DNA of 64,000 nt, taken from Bacteroidetes Order II. bacterium (GTDB taxonomy: Bacteria; Bacteroidota; Rhodothermia; Rhodothermales; UBA2364). Of the stretch, positions 4,056-12,657 are shown one piece after another. Position numbers and translations under genes: made by a program. A model generated the notes under the pieces. The model did not search any database. It was not told where the DNA came from and saw only the letters and a program-made list of their open reading frames with translations. Each line of letters begins with the position of its first letter. The first letter of the stretch is position 1. The stretch is from assembly GCA_016788705.1 (NCBI GenBank), contig JAEUSQ010000039.1:62001-126000 (forward strand). Direction: 5' to 3'.

Positions 4056-5561
4056 ATGTGCGGAATTTTCGGAATTATCAATGCAGCAGATGCGGCCCGA
4101 AAGACCTATTACGGACTTCATGCGCTCCAACACCGGGGCCAAGAGTCTGCCGGCATCGTAACTACGGCCTATGATGCCTCGCGAAAGCGCCTCACGATGC
4201 CGGCCATGCGGAATTTTGGATTGGTGACCGATGTGTTTCGGGACGATTCTGTTTTCCAAAACAAACTTGCCGGGGACATGGCCATCGGGCATAACCGATA
4301 TTCCACCAGCGGATCTTCGACCAATGCCGCCAACATTCAACCTTTTGTGGTGCATTACCGAAATGGAAATTTGGCCATTGCCCACAACGGAAATTTATCC
4401 AATGCGGCACAGTTAAGGCAATTGTTCGACTTAAACGGAACCCTCTTCCAAACCACTTCCGACACCGAGGTAATGCTCCATCTGATCGCGCAAAGCCGAC
4501 AGTTCCGGCAACGAGACCAGATATTGGATGCGCTTTCACAGGTTGAGGGCGCATTTTCTTTGATCCTGATGACCGATGACAAACTGATCGCTGTACGTGA
4601 TCCGCACGGATTTCGCCCCTTGATGTTGGGACGAATTGATGAGACCCATAACCAAGGAAAACCGGCATGGTGCGTCGCCAGCGAGTCTTGCGCGTTCGAT
4701 TTATTGGGGGCAACTTATGTACGGGAAATTCAACCAGGGGAAATGCTGGTGATGGAAAAGGAAGCCTGTCAAACAGGTAATTTTGAATCTTACCTTCTTA
4801 AACCCACGTCCCAAACAGCACAATGTATTTTTGAATACGTCTATTTTTCCAGACCCGATTCCCGCATTTTTGGCGAGATGGTGGACAAAGTCAGGCGAAA
4901 ATTTGGCAAAACCCTTGCACACGAAGCACCCGCCCCGTTCGATCCTAATGGTAAACGCACCATTGTGATCCCGGTGCCAGATTCCTCCAACACCTCGGCC
5001 ATGGGCTATGCCACCGAATTGAATAAAATTTACAACCAAGAAGGTGACCGAGATCATTTTCGGTTTGAGTTTGGTCTTATCCGAAATCATTATGTGGGCC
5101 GGACGTTCATCTCCCCCGGACAAGACGCACGCGAACTGAAGGTCCGCCTTAAATTCAATACCGTAGAAGGCATCCTAAAAGACCGGATCGTGGTGATGGT
5201 GGATGACTCCATTGTACGTGGTACTACCTGTCGGCAATTGGTCAAAATGGTACGAGAAGCCGGCGCACGAGAAGTCCATTTTCGTGTAACCTCCCCTCCT
5301 GTGATTAGCCCGTGCTATTATGGCATGGATTTTCCAACACCTAACGAACTCTTCGCAAACCAATTCGAAGACATAGACGGGATGGCGGCATGGCTTGGGG
5401 TTGATTCGCTGGCCTACCTCTCGGAAGAAGGGCTGTTGGAGGCCGTCCGAGAGACCAATTCTATCCCACCTAATTATTGTACAGCATGTTTCACCAATAA
5501 ATATCCTGTTCCGGTACAAATGCCCAAAGAGACGGAAAAAGAGGCATTTGAATTTGTATAA
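4056..5561 (+). CDS. purF: amidophosphoribosyltransferase
   Basis: PurF catalyses the first committed step of purine synthesis: PRPP plus glutamine gives phosphoribosylamine. The start MCGIFGIINAADA puts the nucleophilic Cys at position 2, with no propeptide. The glutaminase domain has LQHRGQESAG and GHNRYSTSG. The PRTase domain has the PRPP loop VMVDDSIVRGTT near residue 378. Cysteines in AQCIFEYVYFSRPDS, ISPCYYGMD and NYCTACF match the Fe4S4 ligands of the Bacillus-type enzyme, so this is probably the iron-sulfur form. The length is 501 aa. Its last codons and stop fall inside an exact 16-bp sequence that recurs 1.7 kb downstream. Confidence 0.97.
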   Translation: MCGIFGIINAADAARKTYYGLHALQHRGQESAGIVTTAYDASRKRLTMPAMRNFGLVTDVFRDDSVFQNKLAGDMAIGHNRYSTSGSSTNAANIQPFVVHYRNGNLAIAHNGNLSNAAQLRQLFDLNGTLFQTTSDTEVMLHLIAQSRQFRQRDQILDALSQVEGAFSLILMTDDKLIAVRDPHGFRPLMLGRIDETHNQGKPAWCVASESCAFDLLGATYVREIQPGEMLVMEKEACQTGNFESYLLKPTSQTAQCIFEYVYFSRPDSRIFGEMVDKVRRKFGKTLAHEAPAPFDPNGKRTIVIPVPDSSNTSAMGYATELNKIYNQEGDRDHFRFEFGLIRNHYVGRTFISPGQDARELKVRLKFNTVEGILKDRIVVMVDDSIVRGTTCRQLVKMVREAGAREVHFRVTSPPVISPCYYGMDFPTPNELFANQFEDIDGMAAWLGVDSLAYLSEEGLLEAVRETNSIPPNYCTACFTNKYPVPVQMPKETEKEAFEFV

Positions 5562-5566
5562 ACAAG
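5551..5566 (+). repeat. left copy of 16-bp direct repeat at purF 3' end
   Basis: AATTTGTATAAACAAG spans the last sense codons, the stop codon and 5 nt after purF. An identical copy lies at 7245-7260. The core TTGT-ATAA-ACAA is itself a small inverted repeat, as in many site-specific recombination crossover sites. The repeat is seen directly. An attachment-site role is inferred. Confidence 0.8.
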
Positions 5567-5631
5567 TGTAGTTAACTGGAGATTATAAACACAGAATCAT
5601 AAATTAAATAGACCATATATAAGATCATTTA

Positions 5632-6156
5632 TTAATTAGATGATGGTGTCGTAGATAAAAGTTTTCCGTCTTCGTATTGTTCGGTTCTTGACAGAATACC
5701 GTTCTCGCTATAGAATGTCCATGAGCCATGTTTTTTACCATTAAGCCAACTCGATTTAGATTTCAGCTGCCCGTTTGTGTAAAAAACCCTAAAAATCCCA
5801 ACAGGAATATCCATATTATAAAACTCTTCTTGTCTAAGAACACCATTTTGGTGGTAGTATTCCCAAAGGCCATGACCCTTACCATTCATCCAATAAGCAT
5901 TAAACTTTAGTTGACCGTTTTCATACCATTCTTGCCACAAGCCATTTGTGACTCCATCTTTTAACTCTTGCCAAGACTTTGGTTTCCCGTTTTGATATTT
6001 TTCTGTAACCACTCCTGTAACAGGTAGCCCCTCATAAAAGGTCAATTCGATACCATCTTTGGATTTCTTTTGGACCATTGAGTGATCCAAAATGGTTTGT
6101 CCAAATAAGTCTAAGGTACAAAAGAAAAGAATAAGGATAGAAAATAATTTTTTCAT
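5632..6156 (-). CDS. secreted MORN-repeat (YwqK-like) protein
   Basis: The protein has 174 aa with a signal peptide (MKKLFSILILFFCTLDLFGQ). At least four MORN_2-type repeats follow from about residue 45: NGLWQEWYENGQLKFNAYW, HGLWEYYHQNGVLRQEEFY, VGIFRVFYTNGQLKSKSSW and HGSWTFYSENGILSRTEQY. Such repeats are widespread in Bacteroidota exported proteins. Some databases call them YwqK-family antitoxin, but no toxin partner is visible, so I do not claim that role. It is 11 nt downstream of the PD40 lipoprotein gene and lies inside the AT-rich segment, with codon use skewed to A/T. Confidence 0.75.
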   Translation of the reverse strand: MKKLFSILILFFCTLDLFGQTILDHSMVQKKSKDGIELTFYEGLPVTGVVTEKYQNGKPKSWQELKDGVTNGLWQEWYENGQLKFNAYWMNGKGHGLWEYYHQNGVLRQEEFYNMDIPVGIFRVFYTNGQLKSKSSWLNGKKHGSWTFYSENGILSRTEQYEDGKLLSTTPSSN

Positions 6157-6167
6157 TGTTTTGATTT

Positions 6168-7157
6168 TTAATTGTTAAACAATTTATTTAGTCCTAAATA
6201 TTTTGTTTCTACAAAATAAATACTCCAAATGCCATCAAGATTAGGATTTTCTTTTTCTTCTCTAGAAAAAAAGAAATATTTACCATCCCTTGAGAACCTT
6301 GCAGATCCTTCTTCATTTTTCGTATTAACAAGTTTACCTATACTTTTGGCTTTAGACCAACCTTTGCCTGTTTTTTGGGCTACATATATGTCTTCTCCTC
6401 CTTCCCCTAACGGAGTTCCATAAGCATTGAAAACAAGGTATTTACCATCTGGAGAAAGAACAGGATTAGATTTCCAATATTTGTCCTCATCAAAAAGTCC
6501 TTCTATTCGGGTTAACTTCGTAAATTCTTGATCATTTTTTTTCGTTTCAAATAGTTCGATATTTTGGGTTCCTCTTAGCATAGTAGCCAAGTAAAAAACC
6601 TTACCATTATGTGAGAAAAATGAATTCTCATTTGAAGATGGCCATTCTTCTTTTTCTAATTGGACTTGGTTAATAGATTCAGGCAATGGTATAGGAGCGC
6701 TCCAAATTCCATCAACCAATTCAACTTTCCAAATATTCATATCAAAATTACCCATATTTATTCTGTTTGGAATGGCTCTTTCTGATCCAAAATAAAGGGT
6801 TTTTCCATCTGGTGTTATGAACGGGTTTTCATCACGATCAGTTGAAAATGATGCGATTTTTGGTTTCTCCCATCTCTTATTAACAAAACTTGTAACATAA
6901 ATTTTCTGCTTTTCATTTGCAACTCGTCTTGTAAAATAAGCCTTCTTTCCATCAGGAGAAAAACAAATATCAAATTCACTATTTTGTTTTGTAGAGATAA
7001 CACCTTCTGCAAATAATTCAGGTATTTTTATTGACTTTTCTGCATAAGGAATCGAAATATTATTAGTTAAAATCGTTGCACAAGAAGATTGCAATAAAAC
7101 TAATAAACATAATAATATAAATATAGGTATATTTTTACTACTATTACTATACAACAT
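6168..7157 (-). CDS. PD40/WD40-like beta-propeller lipoprotein
   Basis: The protein has ~329 aa. A signal peptide ends in LLQSSC, a lipobox with Cys at about residue 26. The body contains repeated PD40 units: FDICFSPDGKKAYFTRR, ENPFITPDGKTLYFGSER, FFSHNGKVFYLA, SNPVLSPDGKYLVFNAYG and GSARFSRDGKYFFFSR. This is a TolB-like beta-propeller, presumably anchored in the envelope and binding a partner. The ligand is unknown. In-frame starts exist at 7181 and 7157; the latter gives the more normal signal peptide. It is the first gene of a two-gene unit with the MORN gene. Confidence 0.8.
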   Translation of the reverse strand: MLYSNSSKNIPIFILLCLLVLLQSSCATILTNNISIPYAEKSIKIPELFAEGVISTKQNSEFDICFSPDGKKAYFTRRVANEKQKIYVTSFVNKRWEKPKIASFSTDRDENPFITPDGKTLYFGSERAIPNRINMGNFDMNIWKVELVDGIWSAPIPLPESINQVQLEKEEWPSSNENSFFSHNGKVFYLATMLRGTQNIELFETKKNDQEFTKLTRIEGLFDEDKYWKSNPVLSPDGKYLVFNAYGTPLGEGGEDIYVAQKTGKGWSKAKSIGKLVNTKNEEGSARFSRDGKYFFFSREEKENPNLDGIWSIYFVETKYLGLNKLFNN

Positions 7158-7244
7158 AATTATCGCATTTTTTTGAAACATAATATTTATTTAACTTTAT
7201 TTTGATTAGTATTTGAACATGCTTATGACAATGATATAAAATTA

Positions 7245-7260
7245 AATTTGTATAAACAAG
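7245..7260 (+). repeat. right copy of 16-bp direct repeat
   Basis: This is an exact second copy of the 16-bp sequence found at the purF 3' end (5551-5566). It marks the right boundary of the AT-rich MORN/PD40 segment. The sequence after it (ACCCAAGAC...) is unrelated to what follows purF. Confidence 0.8.
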
Positions 7261-7324
7261 ACCCAAGACTTTCTTAAAAGATGGATGGTAGGTTTTAAGG
7301 GCTGAGCGGTCTATCTGCCAGAAG

Positions 7325-7684
7325 TTATTGTAAACTTTTAGAGTAAAGGAGGGTAAACAGATGACATCTAACTGGTGTGGTTCTGATACCGGATGTATTT
7401 AAAAACTTCCTGTAATCAGCCTTACACATGCTATCTACATTGCACTTTAATAGGTGTAGGCTGTATGTGCTGTCGTACCTGTTTTTGAACTTGCTTCTGG
7501 CCGATTCTGTTGTAAATGACCAACTGATTTTGATGACTTCATCATTGCGTTGGTCTTTCCAAGCAAGTGCTTCTTTTTCAAGCATGTCTATCGTTTCAAG
7601 ACGACGATCCAAGCATTGACGAGATAACGTTGAGAACTCGATTTCTGCCATATTTAACTACGAACCATGTTTGGGCGTGTTATG
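7325..7684 (-). pseudogene. IS630-family transposase remnant (C-terminal part, amber codon)
   Basis: Read on the minus strand, the frame gives TPKHGS-stop-LNMAEIEFSTLSRQCL and then a C-terminal region ending SWSFTTESARSKFKNRY. This is the C-terminal block of IS630-type DDE transposases, normally TPKHGSWLNMAEIE. The Trp codon has become TAG at 7658-7660. The catalytic N-terminal two thirds are absent upstream. After KNRY the frame reads on into sequence that does not look like transposase. It is a dead fragment marking past IS activity beside purF. Confidence 0.75.
7402..7429 (+). repeat. 28-bp repeat, copy 1
   Basis: This segment (core AATCAGCCTTACACAT) matches 9457-9484 at 25 of 28 positions in direct orientation. 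It lies at the 3' end of the IS630 remnant, so it may be an IS end or a sequence duplicated by IS activity. Confidence 0.5.
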
Positions 7685-8263
7685 GATGCTCGATGTGGCG
7701 CAGTCCCCCGAAGGCGTTTATCGGGATTAAGCGGTAGTGTGTCCGTAGAACGGGAAGGCATTACAAGAAGAAAAGGGGCGTAGCCCTGACCCCTTCATAG
7801 ATCATGTCACACGAGACCCCATAAAGGGGCATAGCCCTGACATCAACCATACGGTCAAAACCAAGCAAGATTACAGGGCTAACGCCCTTACCCTCTGTCG
7901 TTGTGGTCGCGGTGCTACGATGATTACAGGGCTAACGCCCCTTATAGGCAATAAAACGCGTCTAGGTGCTGCCGAGTCCTAAACGGTGGGTAGCACTACC
8001 CTTCGGTATAGCGCAGTTCCCCGAAAGGGTTATTTTGGAATTGTGTGGAAAACACTAAAATATGCAGACTTATCATAAAATATTTTTACGGCATCTTGAC
8101 TTATCCTACGAACTATTGTAAATTCAACTTATCTCAACTTATCTCAACTTATCTCAACTTATCTCAACTTATCTCAACTTTAGATCTGTTTACGAACATG
8201 TGTTACTTTAACTGCAAAAATGGTATTATGGCATTGCTTTCAGTATTCTCCTTTCTTATGTGA
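7685..8263. repeat. non-coding stretch with palindromic interspersed repeats
   Basis: No convincing gene is present. Four related units with the core GGGGC-G/A-TAGCCCTG occur. Two read forward (7774-7790 and 7824-7840) and two are inverted as TTACAGGGCTAACGCCC (7871-7887 and 7924-7940), so they could form REP/MITE-like hairpins. A second pair of related units is GCGCAGTCCCCCGAAGG (from 7699) and GCGCAGTTCCCCGAAAGG (from 8011). The right part, 8041-8263, is AT-rich with a 10-bp tandem repeat. It sits between the IS630 remnant and a 5'-truncated gene. Confidence 0.55.
8126..8180 (+). repeat. 10-bp tandem repeat (AACTTATCTC)n
   Basis: Five perfect copies of AACTTATCTC are followed by a half copy. 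There are no spacers, so this is a simple tandem repeat and not a CRISPR. Slippage could make its copy number vary. It lies about 90 bp upstream of the truncated gene fragment. Confidence 0.85.
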
Positions 8264-9428
8264 GGGTGCGACTTCGCTTACGACGGCAATAAAGTTCCCA
8301 CAACGCCTTTAGACACTGAGGAATTGCAGTATCTGAGAGGAATGGACACTTTGGCAAAAAGTATTGCTATGTTTACGACAGATACAGGCGTTACAAAGGA
8401 AGTGTATAAAAGTGTAAGAAAATCTTTTGATGGAGAAAAGAATGTACTCATGGTGGACTTATTAAACCACGAATCTTTTAAGAGAGGGTATAGCAAACAA
8501 TTCCAAGACCTAAAGCTACAACAGTTTCAGCGTGCTTTTGAGACGAGGTTTCAGTTAGACCAAACGAAGCAATGGAAAACAGAAAGTGATACTTTGTACC
8601 AATGGCTCATTCAGCATAAAGTACAGATTTATTGGCCCTATGAGGAGTCGTGGGATGGGGTTTCTCGGCCTACGCTGGTAGTTGCGCCCCTAGAGGACAA
8701 TGCAGAGTCGGCTATGGGTTATTCTTTAGATGTGGGAGGTAATTTACAACGTGTATTGGTGGATGAAACTGAAAGCCCATCCCGTCTGGGTGCTTAGCTC
8801 AAATGAGAGGGTGGAAGATGATTTAAGTTTGCAACAGACTATCATGCCCCCTGCAAGAATGGGGAAAACCCAATCATGGACTTTGGTGACCATTGCAGAA
8901 TTGCAGGCAAGTAGCGGCTGGGAGTCTATATTTCAGGGAGGTCCGGAGTTTGTGTTTGTGCGGCCAGATGCAGGGACTTTTCAAAGTGGGGATACGAGCA
9001 TTGGAGCCATACCTATAAGAAAGACCATAGAGGTTAGCAGTTCTAAAGGAACAACGTGGGGTTGGTATAATGCATTATTTGATGATGACTGGTCCGCAGA
9101 TAAGACAAAGCTAACATTTTTGGTGTATGAAGCAGACAAAAGTCTGTTTGCATCTAATTATAAATTAGGTCTTGAGGTAAAAGTGGGGCCTGTAAGTTTT
9201 AAGTCGGAGATACCAGTTAATATAGGTAATCAAAGCGACCTTGCTTTCATAGAAGATTTTACCAGAGAAAACTTCATGGCCATTGCTCGCAATGGTTGGC
9301 CTGAGCCATTAGGTTGGGGCTGCCGCCCTGAATACCTTGCATGCTCAGATCCTAATAGTTGGGGCGTTTGGAAGGGTAGTAACTCAGGCCAAGAGGTTAG
9401 ATGGACTTTTGCAGTAACCGAATGGTAG
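8264..9428 (+). pseudogene. 5'-truncated, frameshifted secreted-protein gene
   Basis: An open frame without a start codon begins after a stop at 8261 (GCDFAYDGNKVPTTPLDTEE) and runs to VLVDET near 8775. The sense then continues in the next frame as KAHPVWVLSSNERVEDDL and runs to the stop at 9428. The two parts read as one protein of ~385 residues joined by a single indel around 8768-8780. The C-terminal half has a Gly/Trp-rich, beta-strand-like character and ends WKGSNSGQEVRWTFAVTEW. No family is recognised. The missing start and the frameshift argue that it is dead. Confidence 0.65.
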
Positions 9429-9456
9429 AAAAAGCATGCATGGTGGGAGGCATTGC

Positions 9457-9484
9457 AAAACTTTCTCCAATCAGCCTTACACAT
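9457..9484 (+). repeat. 28-bp repeat, copy 2
   Basis: Direct copy (25/28) of 7402-7429, just after the end of the frameshifted gene. On the minus strand both copies can be read as MCKAD-Y/W-RKF. Together they flank the degraded 2 kb block. Confidence 0.5.
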
Positions 9485-9558
9485 ACACCACGCTAAATAA
9501 CCTGTATAATATATGTGTAGCATATTTTAAAACGCATCCAGCGTTGTACGCCTAATCT

Positions 9559-9598
9559 GATGGTGCTACGGTAAAATGACATTACCATAGCACCCATC
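9559..9598 (+). promoter_or_regulatory. inverted repeat in the leader of the gene at 9618
   Basis: GATGGTGCTACGGTAA pairs with TTACCATAGCACCCATC across a 7-nt loop (about 15 pairs including a G-U pair, one bulge). It ends 20 nt before the ATG at 9618. It is not followed by a T-run, so it is more likely a leader hairpin or operator than a terminator. Confidence 0.35.
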
Positions 9599-9617
9599 AC
9601 AAAAACAATTACATACT

Positions 9618-10187
9618 ATGAAACAAAACGTTTTACCGCTCGCACTATTTACGTGCATGGCTCTTTTTCCCCAAGTGTACCCGCAAGCGTTAGAACAAAA
9701 ATTCCTTGGGGGGGCTGGTATCGTGCTACTGGGGACTGGCGACCATTTGGCTAAGGGAAGCTATGCCGGCTACCAACATCCTATCAACCCAATCTTCTAT
9801 GTACCAATTCATGTAGGGCATTTCGTACATACAGACTTTAAGTGGAACTTTGATCATATTACGCTTGTGTATGGAAATTTGGGCATAGGTATTGTACCCG
9901 TTAAGTACGCTAAATTTTCATTGGAGTTAGAGAGTGGGGTAACTGCCCGACGCCGGAGTTATCTTCAAACCACAGACATTGGAATACTTGGGGAGGGAAT
10001 CCCACCTAAATATGTAAAACATAATTACATAGACCAAATGGATGCGGGGTGGTTTCTTACCTTTGGGCTTAATCACTTGGCATCGGATAAAATAGATATT
10101 AAGATCTTAGCCTTGTTACAATCCTATCGCACAGGTACACCTGTTGCAGGATTTAAGATACAAGGTTCATTCAAAGTAAAAAAATAA
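9618..10187 (+). CDS. hypothetical exported protein
   Basis: This 189-aa protein has a signal peptide (residues ~1-23, ending QVYPQA). The mature part is short alternating hydrophobic strands with many Tyr, Gly and Phe residues, for example YVPIHVGHFVHTDFKWNF and LVYGNLGIGIVPVKYAKFSL. This suggests a small outer-membrane barrel or a periplasmic beta protein. No family is recognised. The next gene starts 4 nt after the stop and has the same character, so the two probably form an operon. They sit at the right end of the accessory region. Confidence 0.6.
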   Translation: MKQNVLPLALFTCMALFPQVYPQALEQKFLGGAGIVLLGTGDHLAKGSYAGYQHPINPIFYVPIHVGHFVHTDFKWNFDHITLVYGNLGIGIVPVKYAKFSLELESGVTARRRSYLQTTDIGILGEGIPPKYVKHNYIDQMDAGWFLTFGLNHLASDKIDIKILALLQSYRTGTPVAGFKIQGSFKVKK

Positions 10188-10191
10188 TAAT

Positions 10192-10824
10192 ATGAAAATG
10201 TTTAAATACGGTTATATTTTAGGATTATTATTTTCGGTATGCTATGGGCAGAAAAAACCATTATTACCGAAAGAAATCGGGCTTAGTGCTGGTGTTGTTA
10301 CGCTGCCTGTCTATGACACAAGGAGTAGCAATACCCAAAACCTTAATCATATGATTATGGAGCCTTCTCTGTATGTAGGCGTTGTGTATGAGCACCCCTT
10401 AAAATCTTCTTTGCTTTGGGTATCCAAAATTGGTTTCATAGATGTTAATTATCATTTTGAAGACCCTTTGCATTTAATAGATCAGCGCTTAATTAGCAGA
10501 AAACACAACACCCTGTATAGCGGGCTTTATTATCCATTTCAGATTACAAAGCATTTTAAAAATAAAATAGGCATTGGCTTTGATTATCATATCGTGAAAG
10601 TTAATGAATATGATTATTATACGAATGGTAGCATTACTACCCCTGTTTTTCATTTTGAATACAAAGACGATGAAGGAGGTTTAGTGCTTACGTTAGGGGC
10701 TAAAAAAGCAATCCTCCCAAGGTTAACCCTTAGTGCAGATGCTTCGGTGCACCTCTTTTTTGGTGTTGAAGATGGAAGCATATCCTCAACAACGCTTTTG
10801 GCGCAATTGGGATATACATTTTAG
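10192..10824 (+). CDS. hypothetical outer-membrane beta-barrel-like protein
   Basis: This 210-aa protein has a signal peptide (MKMFKYGYILGLLFSVCYGQ). It has alternating amphipathic strands and a C-terminal aromatic residue (TTLLAQLGYTF), the usual ending of an outer-membrane barrel. Strand-like segments include SLYVGVVYEHPL, SGLYYPFQITKHF and NKIGIGFDYHIV. The specific family is not recognised. It follows the previous exported protein by 4 nt and converges on the methyltransferase-like gene 20 nt downstream. Confidence 0.6.
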   Translation: MKMFKYGYILGLLFSVCYGQKKPLLPKEIGLSAGVVTLPVYDTRSSNTQNLNHMIMEPSLYVGVVYEHPLKSSLLWVSKIGFIDVNYHFEDPLHLIDQRLISRKHNTLYSGLYYPFQITKHFKNKIGIGFDYHIVKVNEYDYYTNGSITTPVFHFEYKDDEGGLVLTLGAKKAILPRLTLSADASVHLFFGVEDGSISSTTLLAQLGYTF

Positions 10825-10844
10825 GCAAATCAGTAATATGGGCT

Positions 10845-11387
10845 TTAGGCAATGGTATTGGTGCCAACTTTTCGGAAAATGGCACACCAAAACAGGCTTC
10901 CGTCTTCCTCGTATTCATAGGGCTGCTCTGCCACCGCCCATTCCCTGCCTGAAAAATAAAGTTGTAGCCCAACCGCTGTAAAGGCCAACGAATCCGCCCG
11001 TCCGTTTTGCATGGGTTGTTCCGGCGCTATTGCGGGCACACAGACGTACATCCACCCACCGTCCCGAAGCACACGGTGACACTCCTGCACCCAAGACAGG
11101 TACTGTGCCTCGGTACGTAGAAGATCAAAACTTCGGTGGGCAATTACCCACTCAAACGCTTCTTCACCTACGGGCAATACACCTTCAGGCGTTGGCGTGA
11201 CCCATTTGATTCCAGAAGCAAGAGACGCTTCTTCCGCCGCTGATTGAGGTTTATTTGCGATACAAGTTACCCGAAAGCCAAGTTGTGCGAGGGGCAACCA
11301 GAGTAGGCGATCTGTAAGAGAAAGGTCTAATACCGGAATACCAGGCGGGATGGCTGCCAGGGTGTGCAACAAATGAGGATTGGCCAT
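10845..11387 (-). CDS. class I methyltransferase-like protein, degenerate motif I
   Basis: The protein has ~180 aa. A Rossmann-like order is visible: IPVLDLSLTDRLLWLPLAQL (place of the SAM-binding loop), FRVTCIANKP (second strand), EEAFEWVIAHRSFDLLRTE (motif IV-like) and ECHRVLRDGGWMYVCVP (LkpGG-type motif). The expected GxGxG in the first loop is missing, so SAM binding is doubtful. The start at 11387 begins 4 nt after the stop of the ferrochelatase-like gene. A longer start at 11465 would overlap it. The two are probably co-transcribed. Confidence 0.55.
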   Translation of the reverse strand: MANPHLLHTLAAIPPGIPVLDLSLTDRLLWLPLAQLGFRVTCIANKPQSAAEEASLASGIKWVTPTPEGVLPVGEEAFEWVIAHRSFDLLRTEAQYLSWVQECHRVLRDGGWMYVCVPAIAPEQPMQNGRADSLAFTAVGLQLYFSGREWAVAEQPYEYEEDGSLFWCAIFRKVGTNTIA

Positions 11388-11391
11388 GTCA

Positions 11392-12657
11392 TTAACCTGT
11401 TTGACGAAGCGAGGGTGCGGATGTTTTGTGCTTTGCCCAAGACTGTATCCAAATTGTGGCCCCATTTTGCTGTCTCAGTACCCAATCATCCGGACGATAA
11501 GCTGCTTTTGCTTTTTCCGGTGCGGAAATCTTTCGACAAACCATATCACCCAATGCTTCTAAAAACAAAGGATTTCCTTGAGGTGAGTAACTAACTTCAT
11601 AGTACGAGACCTCTTTCTCTGTAGCATATGCCCGCAAAACAGTATCCAAAAAATAACTTACCTCAAACCGCTCGGTGATAAACGAAATGGGAACTACCAA
11701 CACCGCCTGTTTGGCATGACCAGCCAGTTCGGTTACGACTTGTTTAATGCCGGGTAGTCCCACTTTCTTAGTCCCAGAAAGGATTTCAGACATACACCCA
11801 ATGTGCCAGTCATTAGAGATTCCTTTGGCTTCCAACAATGCAGCAATGGTTTCTTTAATCAGGATAAGGGCTGGATCGTGAGGACTTCTATTGGCAGTTG
11901 TACAACCGAATGCTGCAAAAACCAATTGAACATCCTGACGGATATGCTTTGGAAAACGGGAAATGCCTTCACAAATGCGGTCTGCTAGAGCTTGTACATA
12001 TTGTGGGTGACGGGCATATTCATGAACGAGCGCGATTTTGAACACCGCTCCTGCCCGTTCTATGGCCTCCCGAAAATGGGCCAATACAACCCCAGTGGTA
12101 CTTTGGCTGAAGTGGGGGTACATGGGCAATAAAACGACGTGCTCGATACCATCCTGCTGAAGTTGTTCCACCACTTTATCATGCGTCGGATCCCCATATG
12201 AGTTGGAGATATAGACTTTATAAGTATGTTTCAGCGGATACCGTTCTTCGCGGTTCAAGTACTCATCCAGCATAAAACAAAGGTCTCGACGAATCCGGGC
12301 ATAGGCTGCGCCCCCGCCCATTGCTTCCAATCCTAAAAGCCAGCTTTGTTTTTCTTTTCGTAAGCGCAGCTTAAAAATAAACTTTCCGATGGCAGATAGC
12401 CTGCCCGCAAAGCGACTGTGAAATAAAAAACTTTCTATTTCTGAGATGGAACGTGGTTCTCCGAAACTTAAAAGCACCACAGCCACCCGACGCCCGGACG
12501 GCACCTCTAAAGAGCGGGTGGGAAAAATGGCCCCATGTTCTTCGTAGAGGCGGGTTTGGTCGTTCAGATTGCTCAATTCGGTTTGGGCTGCAAGGTTTTG
12601 CCCATAATAACGCGAACTATCGGGATTCGGATATAGGAACCGTTGAAAAAAAGGCAA
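11392..12657 (-). CDS. hemH: ferrochelatase-family protein lacking the usual catalytic His
   Basis: This 421-aa protein aligns with ferrochelatases by order of motifs: VAVVLLSFGEP, EAMGGGAAYARIRRD (for the GG-SPL block), GIEHVVLLPMYPHFSQSTTG, and VLVVPISFITERFEVSYFLD with the conserved Glu near residue 331. The family's SAHG motif, which holds the metal-inserting His, reads FAAFG here (about residue 249), so Phe replaces His. The segment YWxP is also changed, to SYGDP. There is a ~55-residue N-terminal extension and a C-terminal tail beyond the usual ~320-340 aa. It may be a divergent chelatase or a non-catalytic homologue. The symbol names the family only. Confidence 0.7.
   Translation of the reverse strand: MPFFQRFLYPNPDSSRYYGQNLAAQTELSNLNDQTRLYEEHGAIFPTRSLEVPSGRRVAVVLLSFGEPRSISEIESFLFHSRFAGRLSAIGKFIFKLRLRKEKQSWLLGLEAMGGGAAYARIRRDLCFMLDEYLNREERYPLKHTYKVYISNSYGDPTHDKVVEQLQQDGIEHVVLLPMYPHFSQSTTGVVLAHFREAIERAGAVFKIALVHEYARHPQYVQALADRICEGISRFPKHIRQDVQLVFAAFGCTTANRSPHDPALILIKETIAALLEAKGISNDWHIGCMSEILSGTKKVGLPGIKQVVTELAGHAKQAVLVVPISFITERFEVSYFLDTVLRAYATEKEVSYYEVSYSPQGNPLFLEALGDMVCRKISAPEKAKAAYRPDDWVLRQQNGATIWIQSWAKHKTSAPSLRQTG

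Follow-up and report, generated by a model that had tools for sequence, protein, structure and literature searches.

The closest described counterparts of the purF locus analysed here are genomic islands that tyrosine recombinases have placed at the 3' ends of genes, integron gene cassettes, and insertions bounded by transposon target-site duplications. The locus resembles the islands in having a direct repeat at a gene 3' end, an intact gene and foreign composition inside; unlike them, its segment lacks an integrase, measures only 1.7 kb and shows no credible crossover arms, and its core recurs nowhere else, either occupied or empty. Its likeness to integron cassettes lies in gene content, the PD40-MORN pair being an attC-type cassette in the congener G001, whereas at purF both attC and core site are lacking and integrons do not generate a 16-bp repeat. 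A direct repeat around an insert also recalls transposon target-site duplication, but neither terminal inverted repeats nor a transposase are seen inside the segment, and 16 bp is long for the target-site duplication of known DDE transposases. No literature describing purF as an attachment site for tyrosine recombinases or genomic islands was found.

Within the stretch of 64,000 nucleotides that was analysed, referred to below as the window, the segment is probably an ordinary acquired PD40/MORN operon in a convergent gap that tolerates insertions, and its repeat would be a one-off junction scar or a coincidence. Behind this reading stand the foreign composition, the relatives of the operon, an insert-free congener and other debris in the same gap. 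As it stands, the segment represents routine horizontal gene acquisition.

The repeat and the genes it encloses

The purF gene (4056..5561, plus strand) encodes an amidophosphoribosyltransferase with GATase domains that is 96% identical to its counterpart in G001 and 89% identical to that in the second congener, G002. The left copy of the 16-mer AATTTGTATAAACAAG (5551-5566, plus strand) is the native end of this gene: two leading bases are followed by the last two PurF codons and the stop (TTT GTA TAA) and then by ACAAG, and the first 11 bases, comprising coding sequence and stop, are the same in G001 (GAATTTGTATAAAAAG). The right copy (7245-7260, plus strand) matches it exactly at a spacing of 1694 bp, both copies contain GTTTATAC, and the match stretches to 19 bp if one mismatch is allowed. 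The first-pass annotation had placed an exact 16-mer at the purF stop and 1,694 bp downstream and had held PurF to be undamaged; both copies are located, and the reading frame ends E-F-V-stop, leaving the gene intact. The inverted-repeat core, which had been likened to a crossover site, does have its two arms, but at just 4 bp they are weak evidence for such a site.

A search of the 4.28-Mb genome (G000) finds two exact copies of AATTTGTATAAACAAG, both at the purF segment, so the 16-mer is not common there; G001 and G002 have none. The single one-mismatch copy in the genome falls within a coding sequence that resembles phosphatidylserine decarboxylase (psd-like), a name taken from reading the sequence itself. 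A two-mismatch copy (L177 18546-18561), examined as a further near-match and set aside, lies within a DNA methylase gene.

Between the copies, as had been claimed, sit two genes and no recombinase, in a base composition unlike that of purF. The first gene of the operon (6168..7181, minus strand) encodes a putative lipoprotein of 337 aa with PD40 (TolB-like beta-propeller) repeats (1.2e-25), and the second (5632..6156, minus strand) encodes a MORN_2-repeat protein of 174 aa (Pfam, 1.4e-21). GC content is 0.316 across 5562-7244, compared with 0.493 in purF and 0.463 in the window as a whole. The G001 copies are 58% (MORN) and 53% (PD40) identical, and the PD40-then-MORN order is kept in G001, in Pedobacter psychrophilus and in a Bacteroidetes MAG. 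PD40 relatives are found in Bacteroidota, and G002 has no PD40 match. On the strength of the composition, the occurrence of the pair in Pedobacter psychrophilus and other Bacteroidota, its presence elsewhere in G001 and the absence of PD40 from G002, the genes resemble a unit gained by horizontal transfer. Plasmid relatives are confined to distant PD40 proteins (best 34%), the viral contigs searched yield no relatives, and PADLOC returns no defence hits. The flanks of other PD40 loci share repeats of 9-12 bp at the longest.

Insertions in the gap between purF and the methyltransferase

The gene facing purF is a convergent methyltransferase (10845..11465, minus strand), and the two stops lie 5283 bp (5.28 kb) apart here versus 125 bp in G002, which marks 5562-10844 as a variable gap. 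Insertions within this gap, which lies between two facing gene ends, break no gene. Beyond the right repeat copy, a MITE-like element with degenerate ends (7390..7469, plus strand) has copies on contigs C65 and C25, 95% identical to it, in which terminal inverted repeats of the GGTGCATTTCAAAA type are present. It adjoins a multi-copy fragment (7469..7689, minus strand) with 88% copies at the ends of contigs C6 and C62, which matches no Pfam or NCBIfam family and, from its reading, probably represents the end (3') of a transposase gene of IS630 type. Dispersed, GC-richer repeats follow (7694..8071), also found near or at the ends of contigs C17, C21, C22 and C60, and then a 10-bp tandem repeat of TCAACTTATC (8124..8180). 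As further observations, the 7694-8071 repeats, in many cases located where contigs end, hold GGGGC(G/A)TAGCCCTGAC and GGGCTAACGCCC units, and a second, degenerate MITE-like copy at 9450-9484 has AATCAGCCTTACACAT in common with position 7414. With such unrelated mobile debris present, the location by itself does not point to site-specific insertion.

The family-level comparison covers three genomes, namely this one and its two congeners. In G002, the purF-methyltransferase interval has neither insert nor repeat, and its purF end has diverged (GAGTTTGTCTAACTTG). In G001, an IS-like end (TACTACTGGACATTTT), which also terminates two other contigs of that genome, lies about 25 bp past purF, and the contig breaks inside it, about 50 bp past purF; the G001 bases between purF and the IS-like end give no significant alignment to either flank of the insert. 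With the gap bare in G002, occupied by several insertions here and by a different, IS-like sequence in G001, insertions at this place vary among the congeners, as expected between facing genes. Around the purF 3' ends of 20 order-level relatives, where the downstream DNA is GC-rich, the longest repeats measure 7-12 bp and no AT-rich cargo occurs within 5 kb.

The most probable course of events begins with the horizontal acquisition of a PD40-lipoprotein/MORN operon of Bacteroidota origin, which would then have settled between purF and the facing gene. That gap, tolerant of insertions, has gathered several unrelated ones here, while G001, the nearest congener, has another. The left repeat is the native purF end, and the right copy may have arrived with the insert or may match by coincidence; a one-off short-homology junction and coincidence have about equal odds as explanations of the repeat. 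If it is a junction, we infer that the likeliest step, and its direction, would be a single crossover of short homology on the incoming DNA with the purF end; such an event would yield two copies of the common 16 bp while keeping PurF intact.

Coincidence or a reusable integration site

Pure coincidence, in which case the operon entered by some unrelated process and its ends can no longer be seen, is a serious possibility, at somewhat under even chances. Locally the match is improbable: none of 5000 dinucleotide-preserving shuffles of the two flanks reaches 16 bp, nor does any of 2000 shuffles comparing the purF end with the whole gap. The copies also bracket the operon, one at the purF stop and the other near the change in composition, which likewise speaks against chance. 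On the other side, the pair was chosen after looking, and block shuffles predict 0.085 pairs of this kind per window at distances of up to 3 kb, where the window has two. Moreover, 1.26 Mb of the same genome contains about 11 isolated exact repeats of at least 16 bp at 300-6000 bp spacing, a number counted by hand from the list with CRISPR and repeat genes left out (the script tally of 25 takes in CRISPR repeats). This corresponds to about one per 115 kb, or about 0.5 per 64 kb, across that 1.26 Mb. One of these background repeats is 21 bp long, and its copies fall within or next to core genes whose sequences suggest alanine racemase and succinyl-CoA synthetase. At such a rate, the 16-mer may be a coincidence and the true ends of the segment could lie elsewhere; the sole oddity of the pair is then its location. 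Regarded as attL and attR, the two copies are exact over 16 bp and locally improbable, yet they remain within the genome's background of isolated repeats.

It is unlikely that a site-specific tyrosine recombinase, supplied in trans, inserted the segment as a small integrative element by way of the 16-bp core where purF ends. A direct repeat at a gene 3' end that spares the gene would suit such an element, and the genome has three tyrosine-recombinase (PF00589) loci, located on contigs C65 and C18, the window being on C39. Against it, no recombinase lies between the copies or anywhere in the gap, the arms measure 4 bp, and the core has no second use, neither at another place nor with other cargo, in this genome, G001 or G002. 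Other AT-rich islands and the purF ends of the 20 relatives are equally without repeats: across 33 AT-rich islands in 1.26 Mb, no flanking repeat exceeds 12 bp (shuffle mean 9), in a scan whose automatic bounds for the purF island left out the left 16-mer copy. As for a transposon with target-site duplication, a repeat search finds no inverted-repeat pair at 5567 and 7244, where its termini would lie.

The first-pass annotation proposed a cassette-type integration site with mobilisation in trans. A broader form of this reading, in which a tyrosine recombinase encoded elsewhere in the genome would insert cassettes lacking their own recombinase specifically at the end of purF, is very unlikely. 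The comparison of purF 3' regions that the annotation called for did yield an insert-free site in G002, but not an exact 16-mer in either congener, nor other cargo between two copies. With no third 16-mer, no repeats at the sampled AT-rich islands or at 20 purF 3' ends, and no recombinase in the gap, the idea of a cassette-type site is not supported, and results on a few close genomes speak against the 16-mer as a reusable cassette site. If several strains proved to carry different cargo between two 16-mers, the locus would count as a new site of integration at a gene of purine biosynthesis.

Integron-like cassettes in the genus

That the operon is an integron cassette put at a secondary site by the genus's integron-like recombinase is most improbable and is rejected for want of an attC: in G001 the pair does form a cassette of attC type, and this genome encodes an integron-like recombinase followed by attC-like hairpins, but the purF copy has no hairpin 3' of MORN (shuffles fold better than the minus strand of 5545-5640, z +1.23), lacks the GTTGTGCGTCATTTTA start known from G001 and Pedobacter, and is bounded by a 16-bp duplication that integron insertion does not produce. 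A cassette would carry a G^TT core site at both ends, complementary to the attC arm; GTTTATAC does lie within both 16-mer copies, but reading of the sequence reveals no complementary attC half-site at the purF segment. In G001, a 140-nt hairpin follows the MORN gene of the pair (z -3.5) and is repeated in that genome and found once in G002. The cassette start there, GTTGTGCGT, is complementary to the attC arm ACGTACAAC with one base excepted, a signature expected of an integron cassette.

Related repeats occur at several places. The attC-like repeats of about 140 nt (L078 5385-5530; contigs C74, C18, C16 and C75 of G001; C9 of G002) are 77-89% identical and adjoin gene 3' ends where read (C63, C18). 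On contig C18 of G001, the 3' end of a truncated recombinase lies just upstream of a WD40 gene.

The more useful lead is a cassette array of integron-like type that this genome also carries, with an integrase scoring below the integron-integrase cut-off. A tyrosine recombinase of 582 aa (G000:C65:102771-104519; L113 1414-3162, minus strand) accompanies this array; its best NCBIfam match is TIGR02249 at 210 bits, under the 265-bit cut-off; some 300 residues precede the integrase domains, and model positions 177-240 are unmatched. An AT-rich island (L177) follows the recombinase in the same direction and has attC-like hairpins after its genes, with the arms CGCTAAC..CCGTTGGGG, GTCGCATAAC..ACGTTAGCGG and GCCAAC..AACGTTATGCG. 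One cassette start in this genome, TTATGCGACATTGG, shows complementarity to the attC arm of the same cassette. Separately, contig C18 of this genome carries a very large CRISPR-like array (G000:C18:57379-74048; L201-L202), with 255 counted copies of TTTCAATACCCGAAGGTGCGATTAAAAG at a spacing of about 65 bp.
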